From Flammeovirgaceae bacterium 311 (GTDB taxonomy: Bacteria > Bacteroidota > Bacteroidia > Cytophagales > Cyclobacteriaceae), in contig CP004371.1 in assembly GCA_000597885.1 (NCBI GenBank), forward strand, positions 3,922,501 to 3,986,500: a stretch of DNA of 64,000 nt, in the 5' to 3' direction. The first letter of the stretch is position 1, and every line of letters begins with the position of its first letter. The notes below the pieces were generated by a model. It made no database searches. It had not been told where the DNA came from and saw nothing but the letters and a program-made list of their open reading frames with translations. The position numbers and the translations under genes are program-made. Shown in pieces: positions 24,605 to 30,502 of this stretch.

Positions 24605-26770
24605 ATGAAGCCTATTTTTTACCTCCTGTTCTTTTTCGCAAGCCTGCAGGCTGCCGCACAACCCAGCCTGAGCGGACGTGTAAGTACCCTAAAAGGGGAG
24701 ACCCTGCCGGGTGCCAATGTATTTCTGGAAGGTACCTTTGAGGGGGCCACCACTTCAGCAGCAGGAGATTTTAGTTTTAACGCCCCTGAAGCCGGTGCTT
24801 ATACCCTGGTGGTACGCTATATTGGCTACAGGGAATTTAAAAAGCCTCTAACGCTTACTGAGAAAGACAGCGTTTGGGTGGAGGTGCTGCTGAAAGAAGA
24901 GCCTGCACAGCTGGGGGAGGTGGTCATCACGGCCGGTACCTTCGAGGCTTCTGATGTAAGCAGGGCAGCCTCTCTCAGCACCCAGGATGTGCTGACCACT
25001 GCATCGGCCCTGGGCGATGTGATAGGTGCCATCCAGACCCTGCCAGGTGTAAGTGCTGTTTCTGAAGATGGACGCCTCTTTATACGGGGCGGCAGCGCCG
25101 GCGAAAGCCGCTTCTACATCAATGGGATGGCAGTGCAAAATCCTTACGGCGCCAGTGTACAGAACCTGCCGGCGAGAGGCCGTTTTTCTCCCGCCATGTT
25201 CCAGGGCTTTAAGTTCAGCAGCGGAGCCTATTCTGCAGAATGGGGCGAGGCGCTCTCGGCTGTGCTGGGCATGGATAACCGTAATTTTATAGGAGCAGCC
25301 GAGCAGACAGATTTTAGCCTGATGACGGTGGGCGGATCTGTGGCCCACCAGCGCCAGCTAGGAAAGGGTGGCATGGCCGCGCAGCTGGAGTACACCAACC
25401 TGGCACCCTATATGTCGCTGATGCCGCAGGAGTACAATTTTCACAAGGCGCCGGAGAATATTGGCGGAGCCCTGGTGTGGCAGCAGCCCCTGGGCGGTGG
25501 CAAGCTACAGCTCATGATGGACAGCCGCCGTGGTGGCCTGCACCTTAGCCAACCCGATATTACCCGGGAAAGTGGTGAGCTGGAGCTGGAGATGAAAAAT
25601 GAGAATCATTACGGGCAACTGAAATTAATACAGCCCCTGAATAAAAACTGGGTGGTAACGAATGGTGCGGCACTTTCACTCGACAAAACAGAGCTGATTC
25701 CTAATGGATCCCGCCTCCATCAGCAAAGCAGCCTACTGCACCTGAAAAGTAAGCTGGAGGGCGACCTGAGCCGCAGCTTTAGAATCAATGGCGGAATGGA
25801 GCTGGAGCGCCCACAGGTAGATGAAAGCTTTCTGCAGGCGGGAGAGCAGGAGAAATTAAGCCGCAGCCAAAGCTGGTGGCGCCGCGCAGCCTGGACCGAA
25901 GCCGACTGGCAGGCAGGCCGAAAGCTGGTGCTGCGGGCAGGTGTGCGGGTAAACAACAGCAGCCGTACAGAAACAGTAGAAATACTGCCCCGCCTTTCCA
26001 TGGCCTATCAACTAAGCAAGGAACAACAGCTTTCGCTGGCCGGGGGTGTTTACTCCCAGGAGGCGGAGCAGGAGTGGCTGTGGCAGGCACCACAGTTGCA
26101 GGAGGGAAAAAGCCAGCACCTGGTGCTTAACTATCAGTACCAGCCCAAAAGTCGTATTTTAAGAGCCGAGGCTTACTATAAAAATTACAGCCAGCTGCCC
26201 CTTTTTACAGCAAATGCAGAAGGTGCCACAGCACTTGCGGCAACAGGTACTGGCTATGCCACAGGCCTGGAGGTTTTCTGGAGGGATAGAAAATCCCTGA
26301 AGGGCACCGACTACTGGATCAGCTACTCTTTTGTGGACAGCCGCCGCCAGTGGGCCAATTATCCGGAAGCGGTAACTCCGCCCTTTGCAGTAAAACATTC
26401 ACTGGGTATAGTGTACAAATACTTTATCAGCAGTTTACGCAGCCAGGTGGGAGGTTCTTTTGCCATCAACAGCGGCCGCCGCTACGAAAACCCCAATACC
26501 CCGGGCTTTATGAACGAAACTGCGCCCCTGCAGCAGAACCTTAGCCTGAACTGGGCCTGGCTCTGGAAGCAAAATCTTATTCTTTATACGGCAGTAACCA
26601 ATGTGCTGGGGGGTGGCGAGGCCTATACTTACCAATATGCAAACGAGCCGGGAACTAACGGTTTGTACCAGGAACAGGCCATTGGCACCGCAGCAAAACG
26701 CTTCGTTTTTGTAGGCTTGTTTCTTACCCTGAGCCACGATAAGCAGAAGAATCAGTTAGATAATCTTTAA
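24605..26770 (+). CDS. TonB-dependent receptor with carboxypeptidase-regulatory-like domain
   Basis: 721 residues, an outer-membrane gated importer. Signal peptide at 1-20 (LLFFFASLQAAAQ); a carboxypeptidase-D regulatory-like domain at about 22-105 (LSGRVSTLKGETLPGANVFL); a plug at about 115-220 (LGDVIGAIQTLPGVSAV, RLFIRGGSAGESRFYINGM); then a barrel to the C-terminus. Length is short for a SusC protein and no SusD follows, so it belongs with siderophore/cofactor-type receptors; the substrate is unknown. The protein downstream is a secreted helical-repeat protein 108 bp later on the same strand. Confidence 0.88.
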   Translation: MKPIFYLLFFFASLQAAAQPSLSGRVSTLKGETLPGANVFLEGTFEGATTSAAGDFSFNAPEAGAYTLVVRYIGYREFKKPLTLTEKDSVWVEVLLKEEPAQLGEVVITAGTFEASDVSRAASLSTQDVLTTASALGDVIGAIQTLPGVSAVSEDGRLFIRGGSAGESRFYINGMAVQNPYGASVQNLPARGRFSPAMFQGFKFSSGAYSAEWGEALSAVLGMDNRNFIGAAEQTDFSLMTVGGSVAHQRQLGKGGMAAQLEYTNLAPYMSLMPQEYNFHKAPENIGGALVWQQPLGGGKLQLMMDSRRGGLHLSQPDITRESGELELEMKNENHYGQLKLIQPLNKNWVVTNGAALSLDKTELIPNGSRLHQQSSLLHLKSKLEGDLSRSFRINGGMELERPQVDESFLQAGEQEKLSRSQSWWRRAAWTEADWQAGRKLVLRAGVRVNNSSRTETVEILPRLSMAYQLSKEQQLSLAGGVYSQEAEQEWLWQAPQLQEGKSQHLVLNYQYQPKSRILRAEAYYKNYSQLPLFTANAEGATALAATGTGYATGLEVFWRDRKSLKGTDYWISYSFVDSRRQWANYPEAVTPPFAVKHSLGIVYKYFISSLRSQVGGSFAINSGRRYENPNTPGFMNETAPLQQNLSLNWAWLWKQNLILYTAVTNVLGGGEAYTYQYANEPGTNGLYQEQAIGTAAKRFVFVGLFLTLSHDKQKNQLDNL

Positions 26771-26878
26771 GCTGCAGCAGGCCTAGCAAACGCGCCTCTC
26801 CCTTAGCAAGTATGCTCATTACCTCTACACTCTTCATCACCTAATCATCAATCTATCAACACATAAACATTTATAATT

Positions 26879-27547
26879 ATGAAAAATGTAATATTTATCC
26901 TGGCCTTTCTTTTCCTTCCCTTCCTCTATGTAACAGCACAGGAGGGCGCTGCTTATGCAAAAGCCATGCAGAAAGGGCTGGCACAGCTGCAGCAGGCAAA
27001 ATCGGCAGATGATTATAACGCCACTGCCAATACTTTTTCCCGGATTGTGGATGCTGCTCCCGGCGAATGGCTGCCTGGCTATTATAAAACCTTCGCCCAG
27101 CTGAATAGCATAAGCAAATTGCCAGCCGGCAGGGAAAAAGACCAGCAGCTGGAGGGGGTTCTGGCAGATATTGAACAACAGCTAAAGCAGCAGCCCGGAA
27201 ATAGTGAGTTGTTAACTCTCAAGGGTTTCCAGCACATCCTGTACATGTCGGCCGATCCTGCCAGCAGGGGGCCACAGTGGTCGCCAAAGATCTACCAGCT
27301 CCTGCAGCAGGCGCTTGCCGCAGATCCCCGGAATCCCAGGGCTTTGCTGCTGATGGGGCAAATGCAATGGGGGGCCGCCCAGTTCATGAAATCCTCCACC
27401 GACGAGGCCTGCAGGCTCATCAGCAAAGCCAGTGAACTATACGAGGCAGAGGCAAAGGCAATGGAGGAAAAATCATTCAGGCCAGCCTGGGGAGCATCAA
27501 CAGCAGCACATATGCAGCTTCAGTGCCAGTCCGCTACAGCAGAATAG
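26879..27547 (+). CDS. Secreted helical-repeat (TPR-like) protein
   Basis: 222 residues with a signal peptide (FILAFLFLPFLYVTAQ). The mature part is alpha-helical, with pairs resembling tetratricopeptide units: YAKAMQKGLAQLQQAKSAD, LLTLKGFQHILYMSAD and ALAADPRNPRALLLMGQMQ. The 'ADPRNPRALLLMG' pattern is a good TPR helix-A match. Homologous-looking proteins occur next to TonB receptors in this phylum; a periplasmic accessory role is inferred only from position. It ends 31 bp before the first kinase of the LytS-type cluster. Confidence 0.68.
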   Translation: MKNVIFILAFLFLPFLYVTAQEGAAYAKAMQKGLAQLQQAKSADDYNATANTFSRIVDAAPGEWLPGYYKTFAQLNSISKLPAGREKDQQLEGVLADIEQQLKQQPGNSELLTLKGFQHILYMSADPASRGPQWSPKIYQLLQQALAADPRNPRALLLMGQMQWGAAQFMKSSTDEACRLISKASELYEAEAKAMEEKSFRPAWGASTAAHMQLQCQSATAE

Positions 27548-27567
27548 CAATTTAATCTATAAAAATT

Positions 27568-27575
27568 TACCTTTG
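27568..27575 (+). promoter_or_regulatory. Predicted -7 element for the kinase cluster
   Basis: TACCTTTG, a full TAnnTTTG match. The predicted start of transcription (about 27579) coincides with the ATG chosen for the first kinase, so the mRNA would be leaderless and separate from the upstream gene. Confidence 0.45.
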
Positions 27576-27578
27576 GTC

Positions 27579-28595
27579 ATGTGGCTGGCAATGCGCAAAT
27601 CGGTTTGGACTAAAAAAATTGGAGTAATTGCGCTCTTAAGTTTTGCGCTCACCTTTGTGGTGGCGGGTAGTGATTGGAGAAGTTACCAGTGGATTGTGTC
27701 CTTTGTGGTTACGCTCATCCTTACCGCTGCCTTGTGGCTGGGCCTTACAAACATTAACCGCTTGCTGAACAAGTATCTCAGCTGGACACAGCAGCCTGCC
27801 CTGCGCTTAACACTGGGAATCATCTCTTTTATTTCGTACACCTTGCTGGTTAACATTGTTGTGATGGAACTGCTGGAGTGGTACCTCAATTGGGAGATCA
27901 GCAGACAGGATTACCAGCGAAATCTGTTTATTTCTATTGCTGTTTCTGCCTTTATTTCTCCGTTTCAGCATGCACGTACATTTCTGATTAACTGGCGGCA
28001 AACGGCTATTGATAAGGAGCAGCTGGAAAAGGAGCATATTGTGGGCCAGTACCAGAGCCTGCGAAACCAGGTTAATCCGCAGTTTCTCTTTAACAGCCTC
28101 GATGTGCTGGCAGAGCTGGTGCACCAGGATGCCGATAGGGCAGAACAATTTGTAAGCAAACTTAGCCGCGTGTACCGTTATGTGCTGGAAAAGCGTGATG
28201 CAGAGCTGGTTTCGCTGCAGGAGGAACTGGATTTTATAAAGCGATTTGTTTTTTTGCAGGATAGCCTGCAGCCCTATAAGCTGCAGCTGCAATGTCCGGA
28301 ATTGCTAAGTGAGACGCATGCACTGCCACCCCTGGCCCTGCAGCTGCTGGTAGAAAACGCCATCCAAAACCATGTAGCAGCAGCCGGGCAGCCCCTATCT
28401 CTTAGCTTTAAGGTGGATAATGATTACCTGCTGTTCGGCTACAGCCTGCAGGCCGGCCAGCAGGCTGCCGATGGGCCCGACCTGGGCAGCCTGATTAACC
28501 GCTATAAATATTTAACAACCAAAGCTGTAGCGGTGGAGCAAAGCGATACGCATTTCAGGGTAGGCTTACCACTTTTAAAATTGCCGGCCACTTGA
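27579..28595 (+). CDS. LytS-like sensor with lost phospho-acceptor His (probable pseudo-histidine kinase)
   Basis: About 338 residues from the ATG at 27579 (12 nt later is another ATG). Four hydrophobic helices at about 10-130 are followed by a coiled segment and a His_kinase / HATPase pair of the LytS/YehU type. The H-box reads QVNPQFLFNSLD: Gln168 (codon CAG at 28080-28082) replaces the His found in the neighbouring paralogue and the family. The N-box reads LVENAIQNHV rather than the usual ENAIKHG, and the C-terminal GxGxGL loop is lost (DGPDLGSLINRY). All three changes point to a protein that neither binds ATP normally nor autophosphorylates. The reading frame is intact and similar to the next gene throughout, so it is a maintained paralogue, not a pseudogene. 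Confidence 0.85.
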   Translation: MWLAMRKSVWTKKIGVIALLSFALTFVVAGSDWRSYQWIVSFVVTLILTAALWLGLTNINRLLNKYLSWTQQPALRLTLGIISFISYTLLVNIVVMELLEWYLNWEISRQDYQRNLFISIAVSAFISPFQHARTFLINWRQTAIDKEQLEKEHIVGQYQSLRNQVNPQFLFNSLDVLAELVHQDADRAEQFVSKLSRVYRYVLEKRDAELVSLQEELDFIKRFVFLQDSLQPYKLQLQCPELLSETHALPPLALQLLVENAIQNHVAAAGQPLSLSFKVDNDYLLFGYSLQAGQQAADGPDLGSLINRYKYLTTKAVAVEQSDTHFRVGLPLLKLPAT

Positions 28596-28679
28596 TGCTT
28601 TTAAGAAGAACAGGCAACAAAGGTTTCTGCCGGAGTAGCTGCAGCAGCATGAACAAATCAGCAGTACCTTGCTTACATT

Positions 28680-29708
28680 ATGTCACTCGAAGCTGTAAAT
28701 AAAACCAACTGGCGCTCTCATTTACTAGGCATGTTTTTGCTTAGCCTGGGCCTTACCATTCTCAACGTATGGGGCAGGGTAGAGGAGCCTGCTGGCATCC
28801 TGCGCAATTTTATGTACACCTTCACGGTGGTGGCTGCCATGTGGATTGGTAACGGCTGGATCACCGATTGGCTTGATGCCCGAATCAGCTGGGTAGAGAA
28901 GCCAAGCCTGCGCTTTTCTGCCGGGGTGCTGCTCATGGTGCTTTACACCACCGGCATTTACGTGCTAATTATTGAAACTATAGAATGGGTGAATGAGCAG
29001 GAGTTTTCGCGGCGAACCTATTTGCAGTCCCTGCTGGTAACCATGTCTATTACGGCTATTATTTCTGTGGTGCTGCACGCCCGTGAATTTTTACTGAACT
29101 GGCGGCAGGCAGCCATTGATAAAGAACGGCTGGAGAAAGCGCATGTGGCCAGCCAGTATGATTCGCTGCGCAACCAGGTTAATCCTCATTTTTTATTTAA
29201 CAGCCTGAATGTACTAAGCGAACTGGTGCACCAGGATGCCGATGAAGCCGAGCGATTTGTACGCCAGCTGGGCCGGGTGTACCGCTATGTGCTGGAGAAG
29301 CGCGAGGTGGAGGTAGTGCCCCTGCAGGAGGAGCTTGAATTTCTGCGCAGCTACCTGTTCCTGCATGAAATTCGTCAACCAAATACCCTGCAGGTAGAGT
29401 GGCCGCAGCAGGTAGGAGAAGAAGAGGGAGTGCCGCCCCTGGCCCTGCAGTTGCTGGCCGAAAATGCCCTGAAGCACAATGTGCTGGATGCTAAGCAGCC
29501 CCTGCGGCTGGTACTGCGAAAGGAAAACAGCTGGCTGGTGGTGGAGAACAAACTGCAGCGGCGCACTATTCCCGCCTCCGGAACAGGAGTAGGGCTAAGT
29601 AATCTTACCAACCGCTACAAATATTTAACCGATAGAGCAGTAGGCATAGAGGAAACAGAGGGGTGTTTTAAGGTAAGCCTCCCCCTGCTTAAACTACCAA
29701 AAGCATGA
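28680..29708 (+). CDS. LytS/YehU-type membrane sensor histidine kinase
   Basis: 342 residues. Four hydrophobic helices at about 15-140, then the kinase core. The H-box QVNPHFLFNSLNVLSEL carries the acceptor His170; the N-box is LAENALKHNV and the glycine loop GTGVGLSNLTNRY is intact, so it should be active. It shares order, length and many identical stretches (ARFFLNWRQ-like linker, RVYRYVLEKR, NRYKYLT) with the upstream gene, showing tandem duplication. The stop overlaps the response-regulator start by 4 bp (ATGA), indicating translational coupling. Confidence 0.93.
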   Translation: MSLEAVNKTNWRSHLLGMFLLSLGLTILNVWGRVEEPAGILRNFMYTFTVVAAMWIGNGWITDWLDARISWVEKPSLRFSAGVLLMVLYTTGIYVLIIETIEWVNEQEFSRRTYLQSLLVTMSITAIISVVLHAREFLLNWRQAAIDKERLEKAHVASQYDSLRNQVNPHFLFNSLNVLSELVHQDADEAERFVRQLGRVYRYVLEKREVEVVPLQEELEFLRSYLFLHEIRQPNTLQVEWPQQVGEEEGVPPLALQLLAENALKHNVLDAKQPLRLVLRKENSWLVVENKLQRRTIPASGTGVGLSNLTNRYKYLTDRAVGIEETEGCFKVSLPLLKLPKA

Positions 29709-30502
29709 GAGTACTTATAGTAGAAGATGAAAAGCTGGCCGCCGACCGGCTGGAGAAGCTCATCAGGCGGCTGGAGCCCAGGGCCGAAGTGGCCGGAAGG
29801 GCCGCCAGTGTAAAGGCTGCATGCCACTGGCTTGAGGAGCATGGTGCGCCCGACCTGGCTTTTCTGGATATTCAGCTGGGTGATGGACTTAGCTTTGAAA
29901 TTTTCGAGCACTGTCCGCTGCAGTTTCCGGTAATTTTTACCACCGCTTTCGATGCCTACGCCCTTCGGGCCTTTAAGCTTAACAGCATCCATTACCTGCT
30001 TAAGCCCATTGAGGAAGAAGAGCTGGGGGCTGCCCTGCAGAAGTATCATCAGATCCGGGGAACTGTGCGACAGCCATTCTCAGACAGCCGTGTGCAGCAG
30101 GAGCAGTCGATTTTTCCCGAACCTGTCACCTATGAGCGCCTGCGCCAGCAGCTTACACAGCAGTACAAGCAGCGTTTTCTGATTCGCCTGGGGGAGCAGC
30201 TGCATACCGTGCAGGTAGACGATGTCCTCTATTTCTGGAATGAAGAAAAAGTAACCTTTCTCACTACTACAGCGGGAAAGCGGTACCTGGTAGATTATTC
30301 GCTTAACCAGCTGGAGGAGTTACTTGATTCGGCCCTGTTTTTTCGTATTAACAGGCAGGTAATGCTGCGGGTGGAGGCCATCAAAAACATAGTTGCCTAC
30401 AGTGGCAGCCGCCTGAAAGTAGTGCTGCAGCATGCAGAGGATAAAGAAGCCCTGGTGAGCCGGGAGCGGGTAAATGAATTTAAGGCCTGGCTGGATGCTT
30501 GA
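29705..30502 (+). CDS. LytTR-family response regulator
   Basis: 265 residues. Receiver domain at about 1-120: acidic pocket VEDEK (Glu7, Asp8), phospho-acceptor Asp55 in FLDIQLGDG, switch Thr in FTTAFDAY and the Lys in YLLKPIEEEE. Linker at about 120-160. LytTR DNA-binding domain at about 165-265 with DVLYFWNEEKVTFL, FRINRQVMLRVEAIKNI and LVSRERVNEFKAWL, all typical of the family. Start overlaps the kinase stop by 4 bp. Targets are not evident; the lipoprotein 147 bp downstream is a candidate by position. Confidence 0.94.
   Translation: MRVLIVEDEKLAADRLEKLIRRLEPRAEVAGRAASVKAACHWLEEHGAPDLAFLDIQLGDGLSFEIFEHCPLQFPVIFTTAFDAYALRAFKLNSIHYLLKPIEEEELGAALQKYHQIRGTVRQPFSDSRVQQEQSIFPEPVTYERLRQQLTQQYKQRFLIRLGEQLHTVQVDDVLYFWNEEKVTFLTTTAGKRYLVDYSLNQLEELLDSALFFRINRQVMLRVEAIKNIVAYSGSRLKVVLQHAEDKEALVSRERVNEFKAWLDA

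Follow-up and report, generated by a model that had tools for sequence, protein, structure and literature searches.

The stretch of DNA analysed here, called the window throughout, spans 64,000 nucleotides of Flammeovirgaceae bacterium 311 (contig CP004371.1, positions 3,922,501 to 3,986,500 of the forward strand), and the source genome (G000 in our sample) is a single contig of 6,665,617 bases. We are concerned with a tandem, co-directional pair of membrane kinase genes in this window, named A and B, which are separated by 84 bases and followed by the gene for a LytTR response regulator, whose ATG overlaps the stop codon of B. An earlier note on this DNA had taken A for a pseudo-histidine kinase on three counts, these being a glutamine in place of the acceptor histidine, a changed N-box, and the lack of a glycine loop. 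The features in question are as follows:

27579..28595 (+): gene A, a kinase homologue of 338 amino acids without the acceptor histidine (ATG at 27579; Pfam His_kinase, alignment to B, structure model)
28080..28082 (+): codon CAG for Gln168 of A, at the position of the acceptor histidine (translation, alignment)
28353..28376 (+): altered N-box of A, ENAIQNHV (alignment)
28440..28442 (+): Tyr288 of A in place of Asn290 of B (Asn in 103 of 103 relatives)
28473..28487 (+): remnant of the glycine loop of A, GPDLG, then a two-residue gap relative to B (alignment)
28680..29708 (+): gene B, an intact kinase of 342 amino acids (ATG at 28680; Pfam His_kinase, structure model)
29187..29189 (+): codon CAT for His170 of B (translation)
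29460..29483 (+): N-box of B, ENALKHNV (alignment)
29580..29597 (+): glycine loop of B, GTGVGL (alignment)
29705..30502 (+): gene for the LytTR response regulator (Pfam Response_reg and LytTR)

A and B are identical at 156 of 336 aligned residues (46%), and by domain score both belong to Pfam PF06580 (His_kinase, of the LytS superfamily), with 71.6 bits for A and 84.6 bits for B against a cut-off of 25.2. B has everything expected of such a kinase, namely the domain, the histidine, the N-box, and the glycine loop. In A, all three of the losses named above are borne out, both in position and in residue. Here, the acceptor position is occupied by Gln168, as opposed to histidine in 103 of 103 relatives, while the N-box retains its E-N core with K-H-N gone. 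To the losses already listed we can add the change to tyrosine at Asn290 of B (codon 29547-29549). Lys265, His266, Asn267, Asn290, and Gly305 of the ATP site (B numbering) are all altered in A, with Glu261 and Asn262 kept. By its predicted fold, its structural matches, and Gln168, A is a pseudo-histidine kinase, i.e., it has the fold without the acceptor histidine, and, judged from these residues, it very probably lacks kinase activity.

To see how unusual A is, we searched 390 family genomes with a profile, and 329 of them held a match with an E-value of 1e-55 or lower. Among the 150 matches listed, only G000 and one other genome (G038) occur twice, each time as a tandem pair. We compared 103 loci, made up of 100 of these 150 matches together with G038, the window, and G001 from the window's genus, the latter three holding five more of the 150. 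The acceptor histidine is kept by all 103 of the His-bearing relatives, and the first kinase is without it in both double loci (QVNPQFLFN in the window and QVNPEFLFD in G038), so that the check called for on the first copy of homologous pairs found no histidine in either. Moreover, A deviates at 10 of the 55 columns that are conserved at 95% or more among the 103 His-bearing kinases (H170Q, N177D, R232L, K265Q, H266N, N267H, N290Y, K295G, G305D, and N308S in B numbering). When each of the 103 relatives was left out in turn, 97 gave 0 to 2 deviations, five gave 3, and one gave the maximum of 5. The deviations of A concentrate on the catalytic motifs (8 of 19 motif columns versus 2 of 36 others, Fisher p 0.0017, with motif borders set after the alignment had been viewed), and the anchor columns of the sensor and of the dimerisation and histidine phosphotransfer (DHp) part are retained. 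The dead copy of G038 deviates at six near-invariant columns (H170E, N174D, L228I, K265Q, N308K, and R312Q). As a separate observation, the kinase match G025:C16:38036-39049 appears as an 866-residue frame with one TAG in one listing and as 341 residues without a stop in another, perhaps through kinase and regulator having been read together across the TAG.

Orthologs of A were recognised neither in the three genomes of the genus nor in sets of 98 and 390 family genomes (for the 390, among the matches listed), and so selection on A was taken from a codon model on three sequences, which were A, B, and the G001 kinase. This gave a ratio of nonsynonymous to synonymous change (dN/dS, or omega) of 0.20 on A versus 0.145 on B and the G001 kinase, a difference that is not significant (p 0.41). 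An omega of 1 can be rejected over the full length of A (p 3e-4), and likewise in its DHp part (p 2.5e-5), where omega is 0.044; this is the best kept part of A and is 66% identical to B. With a dN/dS near 0.2, and with neutral evolution excluded at both levels, though not for the sensor or ATP part alone, A is not simply decaying. Relative to B, and measured against 100 other kinases, A has lost 0.080 of similarity in the ATP domain, 0.050 in the DHp part, and 0.014 in the sensor.

The AlphaFold model of A has a mean predicted local distance difference test score (pLDDT) of 83.3 and a predicted TM-score (pTM) of 0.58, and that of B has 82.6 and 0.51, respectively. In the A model, four N-terminal helices, the last of which extends into the cytoplasmic part, are followed by the DHp helices and an alpha/beta domain, and the B model is much alike. 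A hydropathy scan gave three strong peaks in each protein, as compared with the four N-terminal helices of the models. Structural matches of the A model include GanS, DesK, DivL, and RetS (E 4e-7 to 3e-5), for which the TM-scores are low (0.25-0.36 of the query in the top rows). Taken with the residues and the codon model, the findings support A being a non-catalytic paralogue that is maintained under selection next to an intact kinase.

In a tree of 80 kinases, A, B, and the single kinase of G001 form one cluster (100/99), and another is formed by the two G038 kinases (100/100). A common origin for the His-less copies of the window and G038 was considered and rejected, as forcing them together costs 85 log units (p-AU, from the approximately unbiased test, 0.00017); the formal test of separate origins covers these two alone. 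With regard to the split from G001, a placement of A and B as each other's closest kin is compatible with the data (p-AU 0.29). The single G001 kinase is 66% identical to B, and its regulator 76% identical to that of the window. A second genome of this genus (G002) gave no match to A at E 1e-40, and a protein scan of genome contigs with A gave one distant locus only, at 29% identity. From the same fork, the end branch of A measures 1.15 versus 0.49 for B, while in G038 the dead copy is not the faster one (0.66 versus 0.74 for the live copy). The faster evolution of A, along with a loss of similarity that is greatest in the ATP domain, is what could be expected of an independent sensor protein with some other output, or of a pseudogene in early decay. 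We regard this as very unlikely, given that the frame of A is intact and under purifying selection, that its deviations are concentrated in catalytic motifs, and that none of the 11 His-less kinases described next was found away from a live one.

For a wider view, genomes were searched for the motif around the acceptor histidine (H-box) with Q, E, or K at that position (390 genomes of the family, 390 of the order, and 375 of the phylum), and with codons starting in A, G, or T at that position (336 genomes of the order). These four samples overlap, and most matches are not kinases. The family search gave 34 matches, with 30 loci examined and one kinase among them, which was A, with G038 covered through its locus L047, and with G327:C57, G218, and G109 left out. 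The order search with Q, E, or K gave 12 matches (seven full-length kinases and five not), the phylum search six (two kinases already known and four that are not kinases), and the order search by codon 29, including five full-length kinases of which two were already known. All four required an exact pattern, either QxNPxF[L/F]F or NPxF[L/F]F[N/D], which more diverged dead kinases would escape, and replacement of the histidine by Leu, Pro, or Arg through CTN, CCN, or CGN codons lies outside them. Most frames run from stop to stop, some with non-coding residues at the start, and for the live gene of L193 the last 390 residues of a longer frame were used in the tree and 1173 bases in the dN/dS comparison.

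From these searches came 11 kinases of the superfamily that are full-length and lack the histidine. They fall into six groups, namely the window (Q at the histidine position), G038 (E), g96 in four genomes (Q), g119 in two (E), g94 in two (D), and G040 (S). All 11 directly adjoin a His-bearing kinase, and none of the 11 stands away from a live one. The check that had been put forward, on such a pair beyond this genome, thus found the dead-live arrangement again elsewhere in the order. In the window, G038, and g96 the dead gene precedes the live one, and in g119, g94, and G040 it follows. Every group except G038, five of the six in all, has also lost the glycine loop, and g96 and g119 have lost the N-box too (both read by eye). 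Four of the groups lie outside the cassette of the window, at L192-L195 (g96), L196-L197 (g119), L227-L228 (g94), and L229 (G040). In genome G810, a 23-residue open stretch between stops (L201, 1486-1554) resembles an H-box with Lys for His, and may perhaps be the remnant of a decayed kinase.

A tree of 50 rows, in which long branches meet and the g96 rows are odd in composition, requires no fewer than six changes of the histidine. In the window, G038, G040, and g96, the dead copies are either sister to the live ones or their closest kin. Support for joining the g119 pair reaches no more than 90/78, and the copies of g94 lie within an unresolved group together with paralogues. In g96, the dead copies and the live copies form parallel four-genome clades, and therefore the pair was inherited as a pair. 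Between the g96 genomes, dN/dS runs from 0.33 to 0.57 in the dead gene and from 0.27 to 0.56 in the live one, with six comparisons for either; the dead and live values are 0.22 and 0.18 for g119 and 0.21 and 0.15 for g94, respectively. Overall, the dead copies range from 0.21 to 0.57 across species, close to the 0.15-0.56 of their partners.

A regulator gene follows nine of the 11 pairs, and none was found near the two g119 pairs within the stretches examined. The first of these counts fits with A docking the LytTR regulator on its own DHp helices, in the way that DivL does with DivK, either as a sink or as a reader of its phosphorylation state, and with no pairing to B. In histidine kinases, the DHp part also carries the regulator contacts, and it is this part that A has kept best. 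Moreover, a precedent is offered by His-less DivL, which binds its regulator (excerpts of PMC4211667). Such docking would leave unexplained why the dead gene sits beside a live kinase in all 11 cases, two of which (g119) show no regulator gene in the stretches examined; we think it unlikely.

As a control, the His-bearing H-box was counted in 17 genomes, six with a dead-live pair and 11 being chosen contiguous assemblies of the same family, which gave 122 occurrences. In the 11 control genomes, none of 67 His-bearing H-boxes lies within 2 kb of another. By groups, a kinase neighbour is found for 6 of 6 dead kinases versus 0 of 67 live ones (p 6e-9), or, versus all 122 H-boxes, of which nine have such a neighbour, at p 9e-7. 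The two sides here are not quite alike, in that the control counts exact H-boxes, whereas frames and profiles served to find the partners of the dead kinases; as an example, the H-box of the g94 partner (QVHPHFLFN) would escape the control pattern. Counting at the level of frames is the fairer check, and by this 101 of the 103 loci are without a second kinase, as is each of 13 paralogue loci in the window's own genome, where one kinase frame only was found. From the H-box control and the whole-frame counts together, the dead kinases found sit in pairs and live ones seldom do, and pairs of two live kinases are rare in the sample. Tandem pairs with both histidines were seen at G399:C6:148014/149093 and G399:C34:170399/171575, in a genome that also holds a dead-live pair.

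Genomic pairing could in principle be a mere mode of birth, with tandem duplicates of which one has become inactive and has not yet been lost or moved, and with no working link between the two. The trees, which place dead copies with or near their partners, agree with this, as does the restriction of a dead copy in the cassette to one of three species in the window's genus and to 2 of 103 loci overall. Simple leftovers would hardly have stayed as open frames over long divergence, with dN/dS values near those of their partners, and neither the rejection of an omega of 1 on A nor the keeping of the g96 pair across four species is accounted for in this way. We hold this explanation to be distinctly unlikely.

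Two further genes upstream of A belong to the same cassette:

24605..26770 (+): gene for a TonB-dependent receptor-like protein, at the cassette start (Pfam CarboxypepD_reg and Plug; same-strand homologue in 82 of 103 loci)
26879..27547 (+): gene for a TPR-like protein, upstream cassette member (in 88 of 103 loci a homologue immediately precedes the kinase)

For the second of these, the TPR matches are weak and fall under the Pfam cut-offs. Both upstream genes have homologues on the kinase strand in 81 of the 103 loci, and the four-gene cassette to which window positions 24605-30502 correspond is conserved in the family. The order TPR gene, kinase, LytTR regulator is found in 86 of 103 loci, kinase and regulator in 14, and regulator, kinase, regulator in one; the order with two kinases occurs in two, i.e., the window and G038. 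The window shares the gene order and all other members with the family cassette, and differs in that an extra His-less kinase stands in front of the usual single one, as is otherwise the case only in G038. Because the receptor-like gene has its same-strand homologue in so many loci, we view the window as the conserved cassette plus one added gene. The G038 pair (L047, 5604-7696, minus strand) lies in this same cassette, carries Glu at the histidine position and Asp at the Asn after it, and its genes overlap by a few bases.

A promoter and terminator scan gave nothing beyond the level of shuffled sequence. The starts of A (window 27567-27581) and of the single G001 kinase (L048, just before 5808) have in common TACCTTTGGT(C/T)ATG, which B shares to a lesser degree, and this element suggests that A occupies the old promoter-near place. 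It resembles TAnnTTTG, a promoter element of Bacteroidetes. The TACCTTTG motif that stands directly ahead of the start codon in A and in the G001 kinase was tried as a promoter feature common to these kinases and set aside as not general, with TAnnTTTG found in 4 of 105 kinase frames (a count of limited reach before the start codon, and one that the start of A lies outside).

Comparison with described systems, for which we drew on excerpts of the cited sources, places the pair among kinases with a kinase-like partner. Sensor kinases typically act as homodimers, and heterodimers are said to be seldom reported (PMC12675982). Among described systems, the closest to the pair is that of FasB/FasC-FasA in group A Streptococcus, which, like the window, has two membrane kinase-like proteins encoded with one regulator, termed ComE-like; FasB and FasC make two-hybrid contact with each other and neither does so with itself (PMC12675982). 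FasC is a proposed pseudokinase whose kinase domain is dispensable and whose histidine (H246) is needed, so that the two chains complement each other (PMC12675982). A and B likewise lie as two kinase genes beside one regulator gene, although they do not divide the work in the manner of one chain giving the histidine and the other the ATP domain, as A is without both and B has both. The ComE-like label presumably stands for a LytTR domain. Whereas FasC retains the histidine that is needed, A has lost both this and the ATP loop and could donate neither, and the Fas kinases have six transmembrane segments in contrast to the four N-terminal helices of A and B (PMC12675982).

DivL of Caulobacter (with CckA and DivK) resembles A in that its acceptor histidine is replaced (by Tyr), in being without kinase activity, and in a regulatory role on another kinase (PMC4211667), and its kinase domain is among the structural matches of A. 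It differs in that it keeps the N, G1, F, and G2 boxes, several of which A has lost, and, in the excerpts of PMC4211667, it is not described as a tandem copy of its partner, while A adjoins its near twin. RetS/GacS of Pseudomonas offers the likeness of two sensor kinases forming a heterodimer in which one modulates the other, though these are hybrid kinases of another architecture, with A being of the PF06580 group and accompanied by a LytTR regulator. With the ChrS pseudokinase of Corynebacterium, a kinase without its catalytic domain alters signalling by the paralogous HrrS; unlike A, this form arose by a frameshift in laboratory evolution, and, when truncated, gave no significant heterodimer signal (excerpts of PMC9491836). 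Under the terms searched, the excerpts of PMC8895600, which deals with LytTR-type systems, did not touch on heterodimers or degenerate kinases. Among the papers listed in a literature search, mostly at the level of titles and the starts of abstracts, none gave an account of dead-live kinase pairs in Bacteroidetes-type bacteria.

We consider it moderately probable that selection has kept A as a doubly dead subunit, which would dimerise with B by way of the DHp helices and modulate the output of B on the regulator. We are led to this because the deviations of A lie on catalytic motifs while the anchors of the sensor and DHp part are kept, because an omega of 1 is rejected for A and its DHp part with the predicted fold intact, and because all 11 His-less kinases adjoin an intact kinase, as set against the control H-boxes and the 13 single-kinase paralogue loci. 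Added to this, dead copies are conserved between species at dN/dS values near those of their partners, and kinase heterodimers have precedents (excerpts of PMC12675982 and PMC9491836). As for the non-catalytic partner under selection that the earlier note had suggested, the residue losses, the intact frame, and purifying selection on the whole gene stand, and the heterodimer itself is a prediction made from sequence.

Several observations weigh against our interpretation. Relaxed selection on A, which would have spoken against a selected partner, is rejected for the gene as a whole, yet neutrality is not rejected for its sensor part (p 0.17) or ATP part (p 0.09) alone, and, with synonymous change near saturation (A-B dS 1.86), the omega values are rough. 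The motif bias of the G038 dead copy is not significant (4 of 19 versus 2 of 36, p 0.17), and this copy retains its glycine loop. A is absent from G001 and was not found in G002, which confines it to one species of three in the genus, and for this reason it is dispensable in these genus mates. Furthermore, the G399 pairs mentioned above, in a genome of another family and the only ones of their kind in the 17 genomes, mean that duplication does not always lead to a dead-live pair.

Should A be such a subunit, it would bring membrane and DHp helices to the complex, without a phospho-acceptor histidine and very probably without a working ATP site. Most likely the DHp bundle would be where A joins B in a heterodimer or hetero-oligomer, which would add a second sensor input and alter how far B phosphorylates or dephosphorylates the neighbouring LytTR regulator, in whichever direction. 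An A:B dimer would then possess one acceptor histidine and one working ATP domain, with B the sole source of phosphate. Whether A activates or inhibits would depend on B acting in cis or in trans. With phosphorylation within one chain, the A:B dimer would be a half-strength, A-gated kinase, and with phosphorylation across the dimer it would be silent, and A a titrating inhibitor.

The window pair is of a known kind, that of a kinase and a kinase-like partner, in a variant where one chain is doubly dead, and it is the recurrence that is the new element. Such repeated pairing points to a role of the dead copy as a partner by which the live one is tuned. We see about an even chance that LytS-type kinases of this order have repeatedly recruited a duplicated and usually doubly dead sister as a dedicated subunit, giving an asymmetric heterodimer with two sensors and one phosphorylation site, in other words a three-component system that would have arisen convergently some six times. 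If true, the dead-live pairs would be replicate natural experiments on the purpose of a kinase heterodimer. Each of them would pose the question of whether phosphorylation proceeds within a chain or across the dimer, since the dead chain is without the histidine and, in five of the six groups, without the glycine loop.

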